Shown here in pieces: positions 5,336 through 32,332 of a stretch of DNA of 32,332 nucleotides. The DNA comes from Acidobacteriota bacterium (GTDB lineage Bacteria > Acidobacteriota > Vicinamibacteria > Vicinamibacterales > CAVVIG01). The position numbers and the translations under genes are program-made. The DNA is taken from assembly GCA_003222535.1 (NCBI GenBank), contig QHWJ01000071.1:1-32332 (forward strand), written 5' to 3'. Within the stretch, counting starts at the first letter, position 1, and each line of letters opens with the position of its first letter. The notes beneath the pieces were generated by a model. That model saw only the letters and a program-made list of their open reading frames with translations, did not search any database and was not told the DNA's origin.

Positions 5336-5363
5336 GGAACGAGACCCTGCTACACTGCGTCAG

Positions 5364-5411
5364 ACTTCCGACTTCAGACTTCAGACGTCCGACTTCCGAC
5401 TTCCAACTTTG
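5364..5411. repeat. Degenerate heptamer array (ACTTCCG/ACTTCAG)
   Basis: Six 7-base units (ACTTCCG, ACTTCAG, ACTTCAG, ACGTCCG, ACTTCCG, ACTTCCA) plus a partial seventh run directly into the Shine-Dalgarno of the next gene. It is the same word family as the 884-924 array. Confidence 0.9.
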
Positions 5412-8507: not shown

Positions 8508-8546
8508 GTCAGGGCTGAGGGCTGAGGGCTGAGGGCTAGGGCTAGC
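8495..8546. repeat. Heptamer array (GGGCTGA)
   Basis: GGCTAA, GGGCTGA (several copies, one interrupted by GTCA) and GGGCTAG units overlap the 3' end of the amidase and supply its stop codon. The words are related to the TGGCTGA/TGGCTAA families at 19885, 29390 and 31932. Confidence 0.9.
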
Positions 8547-12728: not shown

Positions 12729-12752
12729 CGACTCTCCTACTTTGGGAAATTT

Positions 12753-12822
12753 GGAATTAAAAATTTGGAATTTGGAATTCGCACCGCATTCCAAATTCCA
12801 AATTCCTAATTCCTAATTCATA
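12753..12822. repeat. Inverted heptamer arrays forming a long hairpin (ATTCCAA / ATTCCTA)
   Basis: The stem 12762-12778 pairs perfectly with 12788-12804 (17 bp) around the loop TCGCACCGC, and extends to 12753/12813 with two mismatches (24 of 26 pairs). The right arm is a clear heptamer series: ATTCCAA x2, ATTCCTA x2, ATTCATA. It lies between two minus-strand genes and supplies the stop codon of the upstream one. The stem is AT-rich, so if it acts as a terminator it is an atypical one. Confidence 0.9.
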
Positions 12823-13958
12823 AGCTCGAGCAATGGCGATTCGGCGGCGAGCGCGCTGACGACCGCGTCGACGTCGCCGTCGGTGTTGTACGCGTGGAAC
12901 GCGACACGCAGCCCGTTGCCCCGGCAGGAGGCGATGATGCCCCGCGCCGCAAGCTTCATGACGAGCGACGGGCCGTCGAGACTTTGCACGACGACGAGCG
13001 GGCCGCGACAGCCGGGGGCGGCAGGCGTTCGCACCACGAATCCCCGGTCGCGCGCGGCGGAGGCATAGCGGCCGGCGAGCCGATCGACCTGCCGCCCGAC
13101 GACGTCGTAGCCGATGCGGTCCAGCAACTCCAGGGCGGCAAGCGCCGCATAGGCGTTCGGCACGGGCGGCGTCCCGCTTTCAAACCGATTCGCGCCGGGC
13201 GGCCAATCCAACGCGTCGATACGAAACGCAAACGGGTTCACGCGGCCGAACCAGCCGGTGAAGGTCGGCTCGAGCGGCTCGATGAGATCCCGCCGCACGT
13301 ACAGAAAACCGATGCCGGCCGCCGCGAGCAGGTACTTCAGGCACCCGGTGACCATGAAGTCGACGCCGAGCGCGTGGACATCGATCGGGCCCGATCCTGT
13401 CCGCTGGTAGTCGTCCAGGAACACGTACGCGCCGCGCTCGTGGGCCAGCCGCACGAGACCACCGATGTCGGTCCTGTGACCGTTCCGAAAGCACACGTGC
13501 GTGGCGGGGACGATCAGCGTGCGCCCGTCGATCACGGCGTCATAGCCGGCGAGCGGCAGCGTGTCGGCCTCGGCGCGGGCCCGGCGAATCACGGCGCCGC
13601 GGCGCTCCTGCGCGAGCCATACCTGCGCCATGGTCGGAAACTCGAAATCGCCGACGACCACGTGCGACCGAGGTCCGGAGAAGCTGAGTGCGCTCGCGAC
13701 GGCGTTGATCCCCGCTGATGCGCTCGGCGTGACGGCGATCTCGTCAGCGTCTGCGCCAATCGATGCGGCGAACCGGGCGCGCAGACGCTCGACCTGTTCC
13801 ACCCACAGCTCCCAGGGCGATCCGCCCTGGTGCCACGAATCGAGGTACGACCGCATGGCCTCGTCGACGTCAGTCGACAGCGCGCCCTGCGAGCAGCTGT
13901 TGACGTAGACGCGTCGCCCGAGGATCGGGAACCGCGCGCGGAATTCATCGAGCGTCAT
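12813..13958 (-). CDS. Class V aminotransferase, cytosolic
   Basis: This 381-residue fold-type I PLP enzyme has FLDDYQ (Asp182) for the PLP ring nitrogen and GCLKYL (Lys208) for the Schiff base. It lacks a signal peptide. The N-terminus MTLDEFRARFPILGRRVYVN matches the start pattern of cysteine desulfurase/kynureninase-like class V proteins. The start at 13958 is chosen for GAGGTGG just upstream and for the 14-base overlap with the upstream gene, which indicates coupled translation. The two products may act together or form a heterodimer (inference). The stop TAG (12813-12815) is part of the ATTCCTA array. The substrate cannot be told. Confidence 0.85.
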   Translation of the reverse strand: MTLDEFRARFPILGRRVYVNSCSQGALSTDVDEAMRSYLDSWHQGGSPWELWVEQVERLRARFAASIGADADEIAVTPSASAGINAVASALSFSGPRSHVVVGDFEFPTMAQVWLAQERRGAVIRRARAEADTLPLAGYDAVIDGRTLIVPATHVCFRNGHRTDIGGLVRLAHERGAYVFLDDYQRTGSGPIDVHALGVDFMVTGCLKYLLAAAGIGFLYVRRDLIEPLEPTFTGWFGRVNPFAFRIDALDWPPGANRFESGTPPVPNAYAALAALELLDRIGYDVVGRQVDRLAGRYASAARDRGFVVRTPAAPGCRGPLVVVQSLDGPSLVMKLAARGIIASCRGNGLRVAFHAYNTDGDVDAVVSALAAESPLLELMN

Positions 13959-15410: not shown

Positions 15411-15595
15411 TTGGTCCTTGGTCCTTTGTTCTTGGTCCTTAGTCCGTCCCTGGTCCTTGGTCCGTCCCTGGTCCTTGGTCCTCGGTCCGTCCCTGGTCCT
15501 TGGTCCTTGGTCCGTCCTTTGGTCCTTGCTTCCTGGTCCGGGCACCAAGGACAGGGACCCTGACGGACCAAGTACGAAGAACCAGGAATCAAGCA
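15411..15595. repeat. GGTCCTT arrays with an inverted tail
   Basis: Many GGTCCTT units, some grouped in an 18-base higher-order unit (GGTCCTTGGTCCGTCCCT), run from 15411 to about 15540. They are followed by complementary words (CCAAGGACAGGGACC, GAACCAGGAATC) up to about 15592. The array lies between the aminotransferase start and the end of the permease pseudogene. Confidence 0.9.
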
Positions 15596-19838: not shown

Positions 19839-19884
19839 GATGGCGCGGATTATACGCGCCCTGTGTTCAGCCAGGCACGTGCCA

Positions 19885-19935
19885 TGGCTGGTGGCTGATG
19901 GCTAAGGGCTAAGGGCTAAGGGCGCCATCAGCCAT
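19885..19935. repeat. GGCTGAT/GGGCTAA array with a perfect 10-bp stem
   Basis: GGCTGATGGC (19893-19902) pairs with GCCATCAGCC (19924-19933), extended by one T-A pair, around three GGGCTAA-type units. It lies between the PQQ gene start and the DUF2911 gene end. Confidence 0.85.
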
Positions 19936-20700: not shown

Positions 20701-20918
20701 GGTCAAGGTTCAACGTTCAGGTTCAAGGTTCAAGGTTCGTTCTCGGTTCGGGGTTCGACGTTCAAGGTTCGGCGTTCGGAGTTCTGCGTTCCGAACTGCG
20801 AACGGCGCGCTTGGAACTCAGAACCTTGAACCCCGAACGCTGAACCTCGAACCAGGAACCAAGAACTCCGAACATGAACGAACCTTGAACCCTGAACCCT
20901 GAACCCTGAACCCTGAAG
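20701..20918. repeat. Facing GGTTCAA and CCCTGAA arrays
   Basis: The left part has GGTTCAA/GGTTCGA-type units. The right part has their complements, ending in four regular CCCTGAA-type heptamers at about 20889-20917. The whole stretch could fold into one long imperfect hairpin. It sits between the DUF2911 start and the ExeA-like gene end. A 22-base segment (20724-20745) recurs identically at 25964-25985. Confidence 0.9.
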
Positions 20919-28461: not shown

Positions 28462-28605
28462 TGCACGCAAAAGCGCGCAAAGCACGCAAAGACCGATCTG
28501 TCTTTGCGGGTTTCGCGGCCTTTGCGTCGATCGTCGTTCTAACGACTAATCTACGACTAACGACAAACGACTAACGACTAACGACTAACGACTATCGACT
28601 ATGAC
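28462..28605. repeat. CGCAAAG arrays followed by an ACGACTA heptamer array
   Basis: The part 28462-28535 has ACGCAAA, GCGCGCAAAG and CACGCAAAG words, then their complements (TCTTTGCGGG, CCTTTGCG). The part 28553-28601 has seven 7-base units of the ACGACTA type (one is ACGACAA, the last TCGACTA). The second part overlaps the end of the next minus-strand gene. Confidence 0.9.
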
Positions 28606-29368
28606 CGACTATCAGGCTGCAGCACGTCACGGCGCCCTCGGCCTTCGCGACCTCGCTGGCCTCGACGATCGCCAGCTGAAGGCCGCGCCGGCGGAGGCAG
28701 TCGGCAGTGCGCGGAAATGATGCGGACACCATGATCCGATCCGCGAGGCGCAGCGCGTTCGCCGCCGCCGGTTCCTCGGGATCCACATCGACGAGGGTGA
28801 ATCCGCCGAACGCGGCCCTGTCGATCCAGTCGCGGTTCACGAGAAGCAGATCGTCGTCCAGCGCGGTGGCCGCCGACTTCAAATGCAGGCAGCCGCGAAC
28901 CTCCGTGTCGCAGACCGTATAGCCGCGGGGCCCGAGCAGCTGCCTCATCTGGGCGATCGCCGGGTCGTTGGTACGTGACGAACGGCCGACGAACACGCGG
29001 CGGCCGGCGACCAGCACGTCGCCGCCGTCCACGGTCCCCGGCGGCTGAATGACATGCAGCGGGCGATAGGCGGCGAGCGCCTCGGCGACCGCCGGCGTCT
29101 CCCGCCGCCGCGATTCCGCCCCGGGCCGCGTGATGATTGCCAGCTCGTCGAACACGACGGCGATGTCTTCGACGAACACCGAATCGGGCATGTCCGGGCC
29201 GGTATCGAGCCGCTCGACTCGGTAGCCGGCGTCGATGAGTGCTTGCTCGTAGGCCCGATGCTGCGCGCGCGCCAGCTCGACGTCGATCGGCACGCGCGCC
29301 ACATGCGTCAGTTCGCACGCGCCGAGCGCCGGGCTGACGGCGCGGGTGATTGCCACTGCCTGGGGCAT
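28592..29368 (-). CDS. Dimethylargininase-like hydrolase (DDAH family)
   Basis: The 258-residue product has the guanidine-modifying enzyme pattern of N(G),N(G)-dimethylarginine dimethylaminohydrolase: PDSVFVEDIAVVF (Glu67/Asp68), RPGAESRR, PPGTVDGGDVLV, GCLHLKSA with catalytic His162, and EGAVTCCSLIV with nucleophile Cys249 or Cys250. It would convert methylarginines to citrulline and methylamines in the cytosol. The start at 29368 fits the family. The natural C-terminus after CCSLI normally has only a few residues. Here those residues, GHSR, and the TAG are encoded by the ACGACTA array. Its start is 62 bases from a divergent permease gene, with the TGGCTNA array between them. Confidence 0.85.
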   Translation of the reverse strand: MPQAVAITRAVSPALGACELTHVARVPIDVELARAQHRAYEQALIDAGYRVERLDTGPDMPDSVFVEDIAVVFDELAIITRPGAESRRRETPAVAEALAAYRPLHVIQPPGTVDGGDVLVAGRRVFVGRSSRTNDPAIAQMRQLLGPRGYTVCDTEVRGCLHLKSAATALDDDLLLVNRDWIDRAAFGGFTLVDVDPEEPAAANALRLADRIMVSASFPRTADCLRRRGLQLAIVEASEVAKAEGAVTCCSLIVGHSR

Positions 29369-29389
29369 GCGCGCAATAATAGCCCGTCA

Positions 29390-29466
29390 TGGCTAATGGC
29401 TAATGGCTAATGGCTGATGGCTGATGGCTGATGGCTCATGGCTCATGGCTCATGGCTCATGGCTCA
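29390..29466. repeat. Eleven-unit heptamer array in three blocks (TGGCTAA x3, TGGCTGA x3, TGGCTCA x5)
   Basis: Units are exact and differ only at position 6: A in 29390-29410, G in 29411-29431, C in 29432-29466. Because 7 is not a multiple of 3, each block of three carries its stop (TAA, then TGA) once in every frame. The CA block has no stop on this strand and carries ATG in every frame. The permease reading frame starts in this last block. Confidence 0.98.
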
Positions 29467-31920
29467 TGGTCGCTTCGCGCAACGCCGGTGGTGTCGGTCG
29501 TCGCGGCCCTTTCCCTCGCGCTCGGCATCGGCGCAAACACCGCGATCTTTTCACTGGTCAACAGCCTGCTGCTGCGCGCGCTGCCGGTGAAAGAACCGCG
29601 GCAACTTGCCTTGGTGACCGACGATGTGGCCGGGGGCGTCGAGGCGTGGACCAATCCCATCTGGGAGCAGATGCGCGACCGGCGCGACCTGTTCGACACC
29701 TCGTTCGCCTGGAGCACACAACGCTTCAACCTGGCTGCCGGCGGCGAAACGCAGTTCGTGGACGGCATCTGGGCGAGCGGCGGCATGTTCGAGACGCTCG
29801 GCGTGTCCGCGATGCTGGGCCGCACGTTCAGAGAGGCTGACGACCGCCGCGGCGGCGGGCCCGACGGCCCCGTGGCCGTGATCAGCTACAGCTTCTGGCA
29901 GCGCTGGTTCGGCGGCGCGGCCGACGCGATCGGCCGCGTCCTGAACGTGGAGAGGGTGCCCTTCACGATCATCGGCGTCACGCCGCCCGACTTCTTCGGG
30001 CCCGACGTCGGCCGGCAATTCGACATCGCGATTCCGATCGGGGTCGATCCGCTCATCCGCGGCAAGGAGTCCTTCCTCGATGCGCGATCGACCTGGTGGC
30101 TGACCGTCATGGTGCGCCTGAAGCGCGGCCAGTCGCTCGAGGCCGGCACGGCGGCGCTGCGCGGGATTCAGCCGCAGCTGCGCACCGCGACGCAGCCGTC
30201 CGACTGGCGGCCGAGCGATCTCGCCAAATACCTGAGCGATCCGTTCACGCTGGTGGCCGCAGCGACCGGCAACTCGCCAATGCGGCGCCGCTACCAGCAG
30301 CCGCTGATGACCATTCTGGTCGTCGTCGCGCTCGTGCTGCTGATTGCGTGCGCCAACATCGCGAACCTTCTCCTCGCGCGCACGGCGGCGCGGCGGCACG
30401 AGTGGAGCGTCCGGCTGGCGCTCGGCGCATCGCGCTGGCGGCTCGTGCGGCAGTTGCTGGCGGAGAGCCTGCTGCTGGCGGGTATCGGCGCCGCAGCGGG
30501 TCTGCTGATCGCGCGCTGGGCGAGCCGCCTGCTCGTGCAGCAGCTCTCGACGCAGACGAACACGGTGTTTCTCGATCTCACGCTCGACTGGCGCGTGCTG
30601 ATCTTCACGACGGCCGTCACCGTCGTCACCGCGCTGCTCTTCGGCACGGCGCCGGCGTTGCGCGCGGCGGACGCCGCGCCGATGGACGCGTTGAAGGAGC
30701 ACGGCCGCGGTGCGTCGAGCGACGCGCGCGTGAGCGTCGCGAGCGGGCTCGTCGTCGCGCAAGTGGCGCTGTCGCTCGTGCTCGTGGTGGGGGCGGGGCT
30801 TTTCATGCGAACGTTCAGCTCGCTGGCGAACCTGCATCTCGGATTCGATCGCGATCCGGTCCTGCTCGTGACCGTCAACGCCCAGCGTACCGACATCCCC
30901 GCCCCCGAGCGCCTGGCGGCGTACGAGCGCATCCGTCAGAGCGTCGCCGCGGCCCCTGGCGTGAGGGCGGCCGCAGTGTCCCTGGTCACGCCCGTGAGCG
31001 GCAGCACCTGGAACACCCGTGCGACGGTCTCGGGCGGCGTGCCGTTGCCCGAGCGGCAGAGCCAGTCGAACTTCAACGCGATCACGCCGGGATGGTTCGC
31101 GACGTTCGGCACGCCCCTTCTCGCGGGTCGCGACATCACCGATCGCGATCGCAAGGGCGCGCCGCCCGTCGTCGTCGTCAACCAGGCGTTCGTGCGGAGA
31201 TTCCTGAACGGCGAGAACGCCATCGGCCACACGGCGAAACAGACCGGGTTCTATCCCGGCCCGCCGCTGGAAATCGTCGGCGTCGTCGCTGATGCGGTGT
31301 ACCGATCGCTGCGCGAGCCCGTGCCTCCGACGATGTACGTGCCGCTGGCGCAGTTCGACGACAGCAGGCGGCCGGCGCCGCCGACTGTGAGCGTGAGCGT
31401 GCGCGCGGCGTCGGGCCCGCCCGCGCTGCTCGCGCGCGGCGTATCGGCTGCGATCGGCACGGTGAACCCGGATCTGGCGCTGACGTTCCGGCCGTTGTCG
31501 GACCAGGTGAACGCGTCGCTCACGCAGGAGCGCGTCGTCGCGATGCTGGCGGGGTTCTTCGGCGGGCTGGCGCTGCTGCTCGCCGGCCTCGGCCTCTACG
31601 GCGTCACGTCGTACGCGGTCAGCCGGCGCAAGACGGAGATCGGCATCCGCATGGCGCTCGGCGCCGCGCCCGGCGGCGTCGTGCGGCTCGTGTTGTCGCG
31701 CGTGACGCTCCTCGTCGGCAGCGGCGTGATTGCCGGCGCGGGCGTCAGCGTGTGGGCGTCGAAGTTCGTCGCGACACTGCTCTACGGTCTCGAGCCGCGC
31801 GATCCCCTCACGCTCGTGGCTTCAGCCGCCGTGCTCGCGACGGTCGGCGGCGTCGCAGGCTGGCTCCCGGCACGGCGTGCGTCACGCATTGATCCCGCGC
31901 AGGTGCTCAGGGACAGTTGA
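29431..31920 (+). CDS. MacB-like orphan ABC permease (ADOP class), repeat-derived N-terminus
   Basis: This 829-residue membrane protein has two MacB-periplasmic-core/FtsX units. The first has LSLALGIGANTAIFSLVNSL, a periplasmic core (VAVISYSFWQRWFGG), then FtsX helices with NIANLLLARTAARRHEWSVR. The second ends GLALLLAGLGLYGVTSYAVS and WLPARRASRIDPAQVLRDS. ADOPs lack a dedicated ATPase gene and are expanded in Acidobacteria; their roles are mostly unknown. The next gene begins MSDLRLAVRSLRATPVV, while this one reads MAHGSWLMAHGSWSLRATPV, so the first 8-9 codons have been replaced by the heptamer array. Start sites at 29431 or 29452 are both in frame. No Shine-Dalgarno is seen. Confidence 0.85.
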   Translation: MAHGSWLMAHGSWSLRATPVVSVVAALSLALGIGANTAIFSLVNSLLLRALPVKEPRQLALVTDDVAGGVEAWTNPIWEQMRDRRDLFDTSFAWSTQRFNLAAGGETQFVDGIWASGGMFETLGVSAMLGRTFREADDRRGGGPDGPVAVISYSFWQRWFGGAADAIGRVLNVERVPFTIIGVTPPDFFGPDVGRQFDIAIPIGVDPLIRGKESFLDARSTWWLTVMVRLKRGQSLEAGTAALRGIQPQLRTATQPSDWRPSDLAKYLSDPFTLVAAATGNSPMRRRYQQPLMTILVVVALVLLIACANIANLLLARTAARRHEWSVRLALGASRWRLVRQLLAESLLLAGIGAAAGLLIARWASRLLVQQLSTQTNTVFLDLTLDWRVLIFTTAVTVVTALLFGTAPALRAADAAPMDALKEHGRGASSDARVSVASGLVVAQVALSLVLVVGAGLFMRTFSSLANLHLGFDRDPVLLVTVNAQRTDIPAPERLAAYERIRQSVAAAPGVRAAAVSLVTPVSGSTWNTRATVSGGVPLPERQSQSNFNAITPGWFATFGTPLLAGRDITDRDRKGAPPVVVVNQAFVRRFLNGENAIGHTAKQTGFYPGPPLEIVGVVADAVYRSLREPVPPTMYVPLAQFDDSRRPAPPTVSVSVRAASGPPALLARGVSAAIGTVNPDLALTFRPLSDQVNASLTQERVVAMLAGFFGGLALLLAGLGLYGVTSYAVSRRKTEIGIRMALGAAPGGVVRLVLSRVTLLVGSGVIAGAGVSVWASKFVATLLYGLEPRDPLTLVASAAVLATVGGVAGWLPARRASRIDPAQVLRDS

Positions 31921-31931
31921 AAACATGTCAT

Positions 31932-32022
31932 GGCTGATAGCTGATGGCTGATGGATCATGGTTGAGCGTGGTAACGTAGCGCCATCATCCATTGGCCATA
32001 GCCATTAGCCATCAGCCGTCAG
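31932..32022. repeat. TGGCTGA array with inverted partner
   Basis: Units TGGCTGA, TAGCTGA, TGGCTGA, TGGATCA, TGGTTGA (31932-31966) are followed at about 31994-32022 by complementary units (ATAGCCA, TTAGCCA, TCAGCCG). The array lies between the two permease genes. Confidence 0.9.
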
Positions 32023-32041
32023 ATTTGACAGGGCGAAGCGA

Positions 32042-32332
32042 ATGAGCGATCTCCGCCTCGCCGTTCGCTCGCTCCGGGCCACGCCAGTCGTCACTTCAGT
32101 TGCCTTGCTGTCCCTCGCGCTGGGCATCGGCGCGAACACGGCGATCTTCTCCCTCGTCGACAGCCTCGTGCTTCGCCCTCTGCCGGTCGTCGAGCCCGCA
32201 CGGCTCGCAATCGTCACCGGCGGCGGGTCACCGAATCAGGCATATCCATACCGGACATGGGAAGAGATGAGGAAGCGCGCCGACGTCTTCGGCGGCATCT
32301 GCGCTTGGTGGGCGACGCGGTTCGACCTGGCG
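32042..32332 (+). CDS. MacB-like orphan ABC permease (ADOP class), cut by window end
   Basis: The first 97 codons are visible: MSDLRLAVRSLRATPVVTSV, LSLALGIGANTAIFSLVDSL, VLRPLPVVEPARLAIVTGGG and then AWWATRFDLA at the border. This is the N-terminal membrane helix and the start of the MacB core, closely similar to the preceding gene, so the pair arose by tandem duplication or belongs to an ADOP cluster. The start ATG at 32042 is intact and shows what the upstream paralogue has lost. No strong Shine-Dalgarno is present. Confidence 0.85.
   Translation, partial: MSDLRLAVRSLRATPVVTSVALLSLALGIGANTAIFSLVDSLVLRPLPVVEPARLAIVTGGGSPNQAYPYRTWEEMRKRADVFGGICAWWATRFDLA

Follow-up and report, generated by a model that had tools for sequence, protein, structure and literature searches.

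Introduction

MITE and REP/BIME are short, dispersed, non-coding inverted repeats that form hairpins, and the STRR of cyanobacteria are marked by an excess of repeats with a period of seven. Such a period-7 excess has likewise been reported for the long simple sequence repeats (LSSR) of some bacterial genomes, polymerase slippage being proposed (Mrazek 2007, cited via PMC4679880).

Two heptamer families are closest to the one described here. In marine Beggiatoaceae, all-frame stops, nearness to start codons and overlap with the ends of open reading frames have already been noted for arrays of the heptamer TAACTGA (MacGregor 2015, PMC4679880). Heptamer repeats of the GGGNATC type occur in Xanthomonas and Nostoc, and the same work remarks that little research has followed on the known over-abundance of bacterial heptamer repeats (Rehm 2015, PMC4692102).

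The window analysed here is a stretch of 32,332 nucleotides from a genome of Acidobacteriota (contig QHWJ01000071.1; draft assembly of 8.06 Mb in 450 contigs), which carries an array of TGGCTNA heptamers next to a permease gene. The element of this family resembles MITE and REP/BIME in being short, dispersed, non-coding, inverted-repeat and hairpin-forming, but its arms are variable heptamer arrays. Like TAACTGA, TGGCTNA is a seven-base unit whose arrays are dispersed, mostly intergenic and near start codons, with all-frame stops in one orientation, few ribosome-binding motifs and some overlap with ORF ends; however, TAACTGA arrays are described as direct repeats, mostly two- to six-fold, apart from one indirect repeat, whereas TGGCTNA arrays mostly appear as paired inverted arms with a recurrent terminus (PMC4679880). 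With GGGNATC the family shares dispersed heptamer arrays over-represented in non-coding DNA, although GGGNATC forms G-quadruplexes while TGGCTNA holds no run of three Gs, and a paired-arm element is not among the features that the available text on GGGNATC describes (PMC4692102). Unlike TGGCTNA arrays, LSSR and STRR are not presented as arms of a hairpin element in the descriptions available. Among the titles listed by our literature search, which mostly covered literature outside subscription, none concerned heptamer elements in Acidobacteriota.

An array of three pure blocks

The array spans 29390-29466 and consists of 11 exact TGGCTNA units whose variable base reads AAA GGG CCCCC (AAAGGGCCCCC), with GTCA directly before it and TGGTCGC directly after it, the sequence 3' of the array being TGGTCGCTTCGC. 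The eleven exact heptamers in three pure blocks announced by the original prediction are thus confirmed. A two-unit search allowing one mismatch found 18 matches in the window where dinucleotide shuffles predict 0.08; eleven of the 18 are exact. The features of the array, all on the plus strand, are:

29386..29389, plus strand: GTCA, outer terminus of the element (from sequence and flank comparison)
29390..29410, plus strand: three TGGCTAA units, TAA in all three frames (from sequence)
29411..29431, plus strand: three TGGCTGA units, TGA in all three frames (from sequence)
29432..29466, plus strand: five TGGCTCA units without stop, with ATGs at 29431 and 29452 in the permease frame (from sequence)
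29467..29475, plus strand: junction, TGGTCG and then permease codons TCG CTT CGC (S L R), with the putative breakpoint

Because 7 = 1 mod 3, three successive heptamers put any triplet in all frames. Indeed, the TAA block carries one TAA per frame (29394, 29401, 29408) and the TGA block one TGA per frame (29415, 29422, 29429), both being the all-frame stops that had been claimed. The TCA block contains no stop, also as claimed, but the ATG in all three frames that was seen as its special feature is not particular to it: ATG occurs once per unit in every block, giving 11 ATGs from 29396 to 29466 in all frames. Stops in every frame of one strand result from 31% of possible heptamers, and ATGs in every frame from 11%. 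Positions 29431, 29452 and 29470 lie in the permease frame, in which two of the five TCA units supply a TCA codon (29443 and 29464, from sequence reading), the last one alone (29464) mattering for a start at 29452; upstream of the TCA block, this frame meets TAA at 29401 and TGA at 29422. The idea that an in-frame ATG would outlast gain or loss of units is correct but trivial, as changes within the array leave the last three ATGs unmoved. A phase-variable contingency locus, in which slippage would switch the reading frame of the gene, was considered and ruled out: ATGs recur in every frame, and by arithmetic the last three stay at a fixed distance from the gene.

The window holds further heptamer families (GACTTCA, ATTCCAA, TTGGTCC, TCAAGGT, CTAACGA and others), located at:

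883-923, 5363-5409, 8511-8543 and 12747-12823: other heptamer families
15411-15540, 19884-19923, 20703-20917 and 28539-28601: other heptamer families, continued

When runs of at least 12 matches were sought at periods 2-30, the window showed 12 runs at period 7 and others at multiples of 7, those off these multiples being single ones at periods 12, 18, 24 and 25. Over 719 kb of sequence, period 7 was the commonest (22 runs), followed by period 18 (12 runs).

A dispersed element with paired heptamer arms

A three-unit pattern matched 172 times in the source genome and never when reversed. The reversed control pattern did match in five genomes of other families of the phylum (G157, G210, G311, G312 and G327; at most 16 matches in one), where it represents another heptamer family. 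From 57 stretches of the source genome, which cover 169 of the 172 matches and thus miss one to three arrays, we retrieved 70 arrays of at least three units, 327 units in all (G 213, A 82, C 27, T 5); rescanning every source-genome locus retrieved revealed no further array. Exact period seven, at least three units and many loci identify these 70 arrays as dispersed heptanucleotide tandem repeats of the LSSR/STRR type. They lie mostly outside coding sequence, only 4 of 70 being more than half inside a called CDS in a sample with a coding fraction of 77%.

Most of these arrays are not solitary. An inverted unit was found within 200 nt on the inner side of 47 of the 70 arrays and on the outer side of two, so that terminal inverted repeats of the MITE kind are present for 47 arrays, the window array itself having none. 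Termini also recur: TCA stands before 28 of 70 arrays and GTCA before 19, the inner stretch begins with TGGCATA in seven and with TGGCTAT in another seven, and when the arrays are printed side by side a mirrored right half is visible in many. The TGGTCG of the window junction resembles TGGTCGA, found directly 3' of two of the 70 arrays. Folding z values of four two-arm stretches of the source genome were -10.05, -10.00, -6.91 and -5.54, against -2.07 for the window array. The last of the four lies within the window, downstream of the permease:

31926..32027, no strand assigned: fuller, degenerate element of the TGGCTNA family between two ADOP genes (hairpin fold z -5.54), the second of which starts at 32042

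On the basis of inverted-unit placement, termini and fold scores, most arrays look like arms of a dispersed, hairpin-like inverted element, and we read the window array as a lone left arm that would have been joined to the ADOP permease gene. Target-site duplications were not seen by eye in the printed array flanks.

The family is patchily distributed. It was detected in 11 of 59 other relatives, all of other genera than the source (12/60 with the source genome), and a four-unit pattern in 3 of 296 other genomes of the phylum (4/297 with the source). It is dense in a relative, the MAG 'Acidobacteria bacterium gp6 AA45' (QHWK01), with 49 arrays at 32 loci (32 of 36 kept, four from other taxa dropped); these loci were selected by their GTCA terminus, so that the frequency of GTCA among them is meaningless. 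Single family loci occur in a cyanobacterium, a Psychrobacter, an Anaerolineales MAG and a Proteobacteria MAG. At three loci of a distant relative (L241, L242 and L243 of G070), the unit string CCGC is common to all three, with longer inverted stretches around it, possibly a further element of the TGGCTNA type.

A single Y1 transposase gene (PF01797) was found in the source genome. By eye, it is flanked by a different palindrome, of GTCCGGCTTCAGCCGGACC type (locus L198, about 1320-1400 and 1930-2000), with which it could form a REP/RAYT pair, and its flanks contain no tandem repeats. In REP/BIME with a RAYT the Y1 gene is flanked by its own palindrome, which is not the case for the TGGCTNA family; with the sole Y1 gene flanked by another palindrome and no tandem repeats, we do not claim RAYT mobilization of this family.

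Loss of the native permease start

The array lies between two divergent genes:

28592..29368, minus strand: dimethylargininase-like divergent gene (NCBIfam NF045660, Pfam ADI)
29431..31920, plus strand: ADOP family permease (TIGR03434), 829 aa from 29431 or 822 aa from 29452

The permease belongs to TIGR03434 (835.5 bits for a cut-off of 622.3; E 4.1e-251 over residues 14-828), and its frame has the top gene-call score of the window (182) in our home-made, simple model, which is biased to ATG starts. The divergent gene matches NF045660 with E 2.1e-70 and 237 bits, below the cut-off of 340, and Pfam ADI with 27.6 bits, just over the cut-off of 22.8. Matches to it were found in 37 of 59 other genomes (38/60 with the source genome), yet its pairing with an ADOP gene is not general: the two adjoin at 3 of 29 loci of other genomes, as judged by motif search in flanks mostly of at most 1500 bases.

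In the three syntenic relatives (G017, G026 and G016; loci L134-L136), the gene pair is divergent, the permease N-terminus is intact (M[HN]DLRLA[IF]R.LR.TP) and no TGGCTNA array lies between the genes. BLASTP aligned source residue 14 to residue 10 onward of all three relatives, at 71-77% identity over partial relative sequences. The source permease accordingly lacks the native start and nine native residues, and has array-coded residues instead, reading MAHGSWLMAHGSW or MAHGSW and then SLRATP. By eye, the repeats between the gene pair change from one relative to the next: G017 has a hairpin-like repeat, G026 has TGGTGGC/TGGTGAC-like (TGGTGRC) heptamers, and G016 has two ATTTCAG-like arrays inverted to each other.

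Since the permease lacks the native start and the first nine residues that three relatives retain, its translation probably begins inside the array, at ATG 29431 or 29452, the TCA run leaving the permease frame open. The claim that the array gives the permease its start is therefore upheld as probable.

Overall, we consider it probable, at about 70%, that the array is the left arm of an inverted-repeat element, grown by unit duplication, joined by deletion to the permease and supplying its start. The arm would come from a dispersed inverted-repeat element with heptamer-array arms, and its pure blocks would have arisen through local duplication of single units by replication slippage or unequal exchange. 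A deletion, deduced by comparison with genomes of other genera, would then have removed the inner part of the element, its right arm and, from the permease, the native start along with the first nine codons, with a breakpoint presumably within 29467..29475. The left arm would thereby have been joined to the permease gene, which could be read from ATG 29431 or 29452 through TCA units without in-frame stops.

It is unlikely, in our estimation, that the permease is instead decaying or starts further downstream, leaving the array inert and its ATGs unused. Such a reading would agree with the loss of the native start and with the absence of AGGA, GGAG or GAGG before 29431 or 29452. Nevertheless, the 829-aa frame is intact and matches the ADOP model almost throughout, as given above, and a missing Shine-Dalgarno-like motif is common in the source genome, where just 107 of 301 confident starts have one (44 of 301 random positions). 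By eye, the closest downstream GTGs border the hydrophobic segment, and the permease might still start at a GTG bordering its first transmembrane segment.

Order of the blocks

Block sorting is what local duplication of single units predicts, and it is common in the source genome. Within 49 arrays of at least four units, 66 junctions separate unlike neighbours, versus 89.1 in shuffled arrays (a value as low was reached by 0 of 2000 shuffles); for 40 arrays of AA45 (QHWK01) the values are 35 and 44.5 (15 of 2000 as low). The genome-wide search for unit order proposed with the original prediction thus revealed a clear excess of sorting, but not full sorting, as 21 of 36 mixed arrays of the source genome are fully block-sorted and 15 are unsorted. 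Moreover, when the window array is set aside, C units lean to the inner end (mean relative position 0.746 versus 0.499; fraction of shuffles at least as high 0.0005), and when it is included 14 of 70 arrays end in a C unit and one begins with it. This same bias elsewhere means that C units close to the inner end are characteristic of the element and not of the permease; together with the commonness of blocks, it leaves the block order without need of a start-codon reason.

The length of the TCA run is more particular. Across the 70 arrays, all 22 other C runs are single units, and the five TCA units form the only run of at least two. One pair of TCA units exists in AA45 (QHWK01), and three consecutive TCA units occur in 5 of 193 genomes of the class, source included. 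In the four relatives concerned, the runs of three or four TCA units lie without a clear gene start in three cases; the fourth (L237) is ambiguous, with an open frame but a called start six bases further on. TCA runs as a mark of gene starts were consequently rejected. Their rarity fits selection for an open frame, and the relatives show that they can originate without such selection.

These results bear on the proposal that the order is adaptive, the stop blocks insulating the permease against translation that is spurious or arrives from upstream, and the TCA block tuning or securing initiation. In its favour, the sole TCA run of at least two units in 70 arrays sits exactly where an open frame is needed, and TAA (29401) and TGA (29422) stand upstream in the permease frame. 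However, the inner-end bias of TCA in other arrays, the pair in QHWK01, the TCA runs mostly away from gene starts in four relatives, and the fact that one or two TCA codons would be enough render it improbable. Neither design in the block order nor an insulating or tuning role, as originally suggested, is needed, duplication and element polarity being sufficient.

Finally, an assembly artefact, by which the array would be a collapsed or chimeric join between repeats of a family present at some 70 places in a draft of 450 contigs, is very improbable, as three relatives have these two genes side by side, no other array was found with a TCA run that could have joined here, and the array is shorter than 90 bases.

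Contact of arrays with gene starts and stops

The reading of the window array as a lone left arm joined to the permease can be set beside the contacts that other arrays make with genes. Where the outer neighbour ends towards the array, 9 of 28 arrays contain that gene's stop codon; where it starts away from the array, the called start coincides exactly with the outward ATG in 10 of 39. AA45 (QHWK01) shows four such starts and six such stops among 49 arrays. The nine stops reflect overlap rather than function, because a gene entering a TGA or TAA unit must soon stop.

All ten array-started proteins match a Pfam family above cut-off, and they include QueG, LpxI, a FabZ-LpxA fusion, an ABC-F ATPase and a YmdB-like phosphoesterase. 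For LpxI and the YmdB-like phosphoesterase, the NCBIfam match runs from residue 2 at model position 1; the LpxI score is below the NCBIfam cut-off, and Pfam LpxI_N, likewise from residue 2, is above its own. The 25 bases upstream of these genes are entirely or almost entirely array sequence, with AGGA, GGAG or GAGG in none of the ten. In the sample of 301 starts of the source genome, AGCC is the commonest tetranucleotide before starts (8/301; the next, 7). Towards the ten genes the units read TNAGCCA, while the permease lies on the other side, where they read TGGCTNA; the permease, of opposite orientation, is thus not the typical array-started case. Two genes of QHWK01 (L216 and L231), which we take to resemble SelB and a MEMO1-family protein, start with MT... 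at the element end, which suggests that this end adds codons to conserved proteins.

A wider role can be offered tentatively. The hairpin element with heptamer-array arms might act as punctuation filling intergenic gaps, its units stopping the upstream gene and its ends giving the downstream gene an AGCC-ATG start without Shine-Dalgarno; the window arm would then have taken over the permease start, with selection keeping the TCA run free of stops.

Dispersed heptamer arrays, all-frame stops and nearness to starts are already known from earlier work (PMC4679880, PMC4692102); of greater interest are the paired-arm element and the exactness with which it meets gene starts and stops. Conserved genes (LpxI, the FabZ-LpxA fusion, QueG and the YmdB-like phosphoesterase) begin exactly at an array boundary, by which ribosome initiation on a repeat-derived leader becomes testable. 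In the same way, the window array suggests a route by which a repeat may replace the start of a gene while the reading frame survives.
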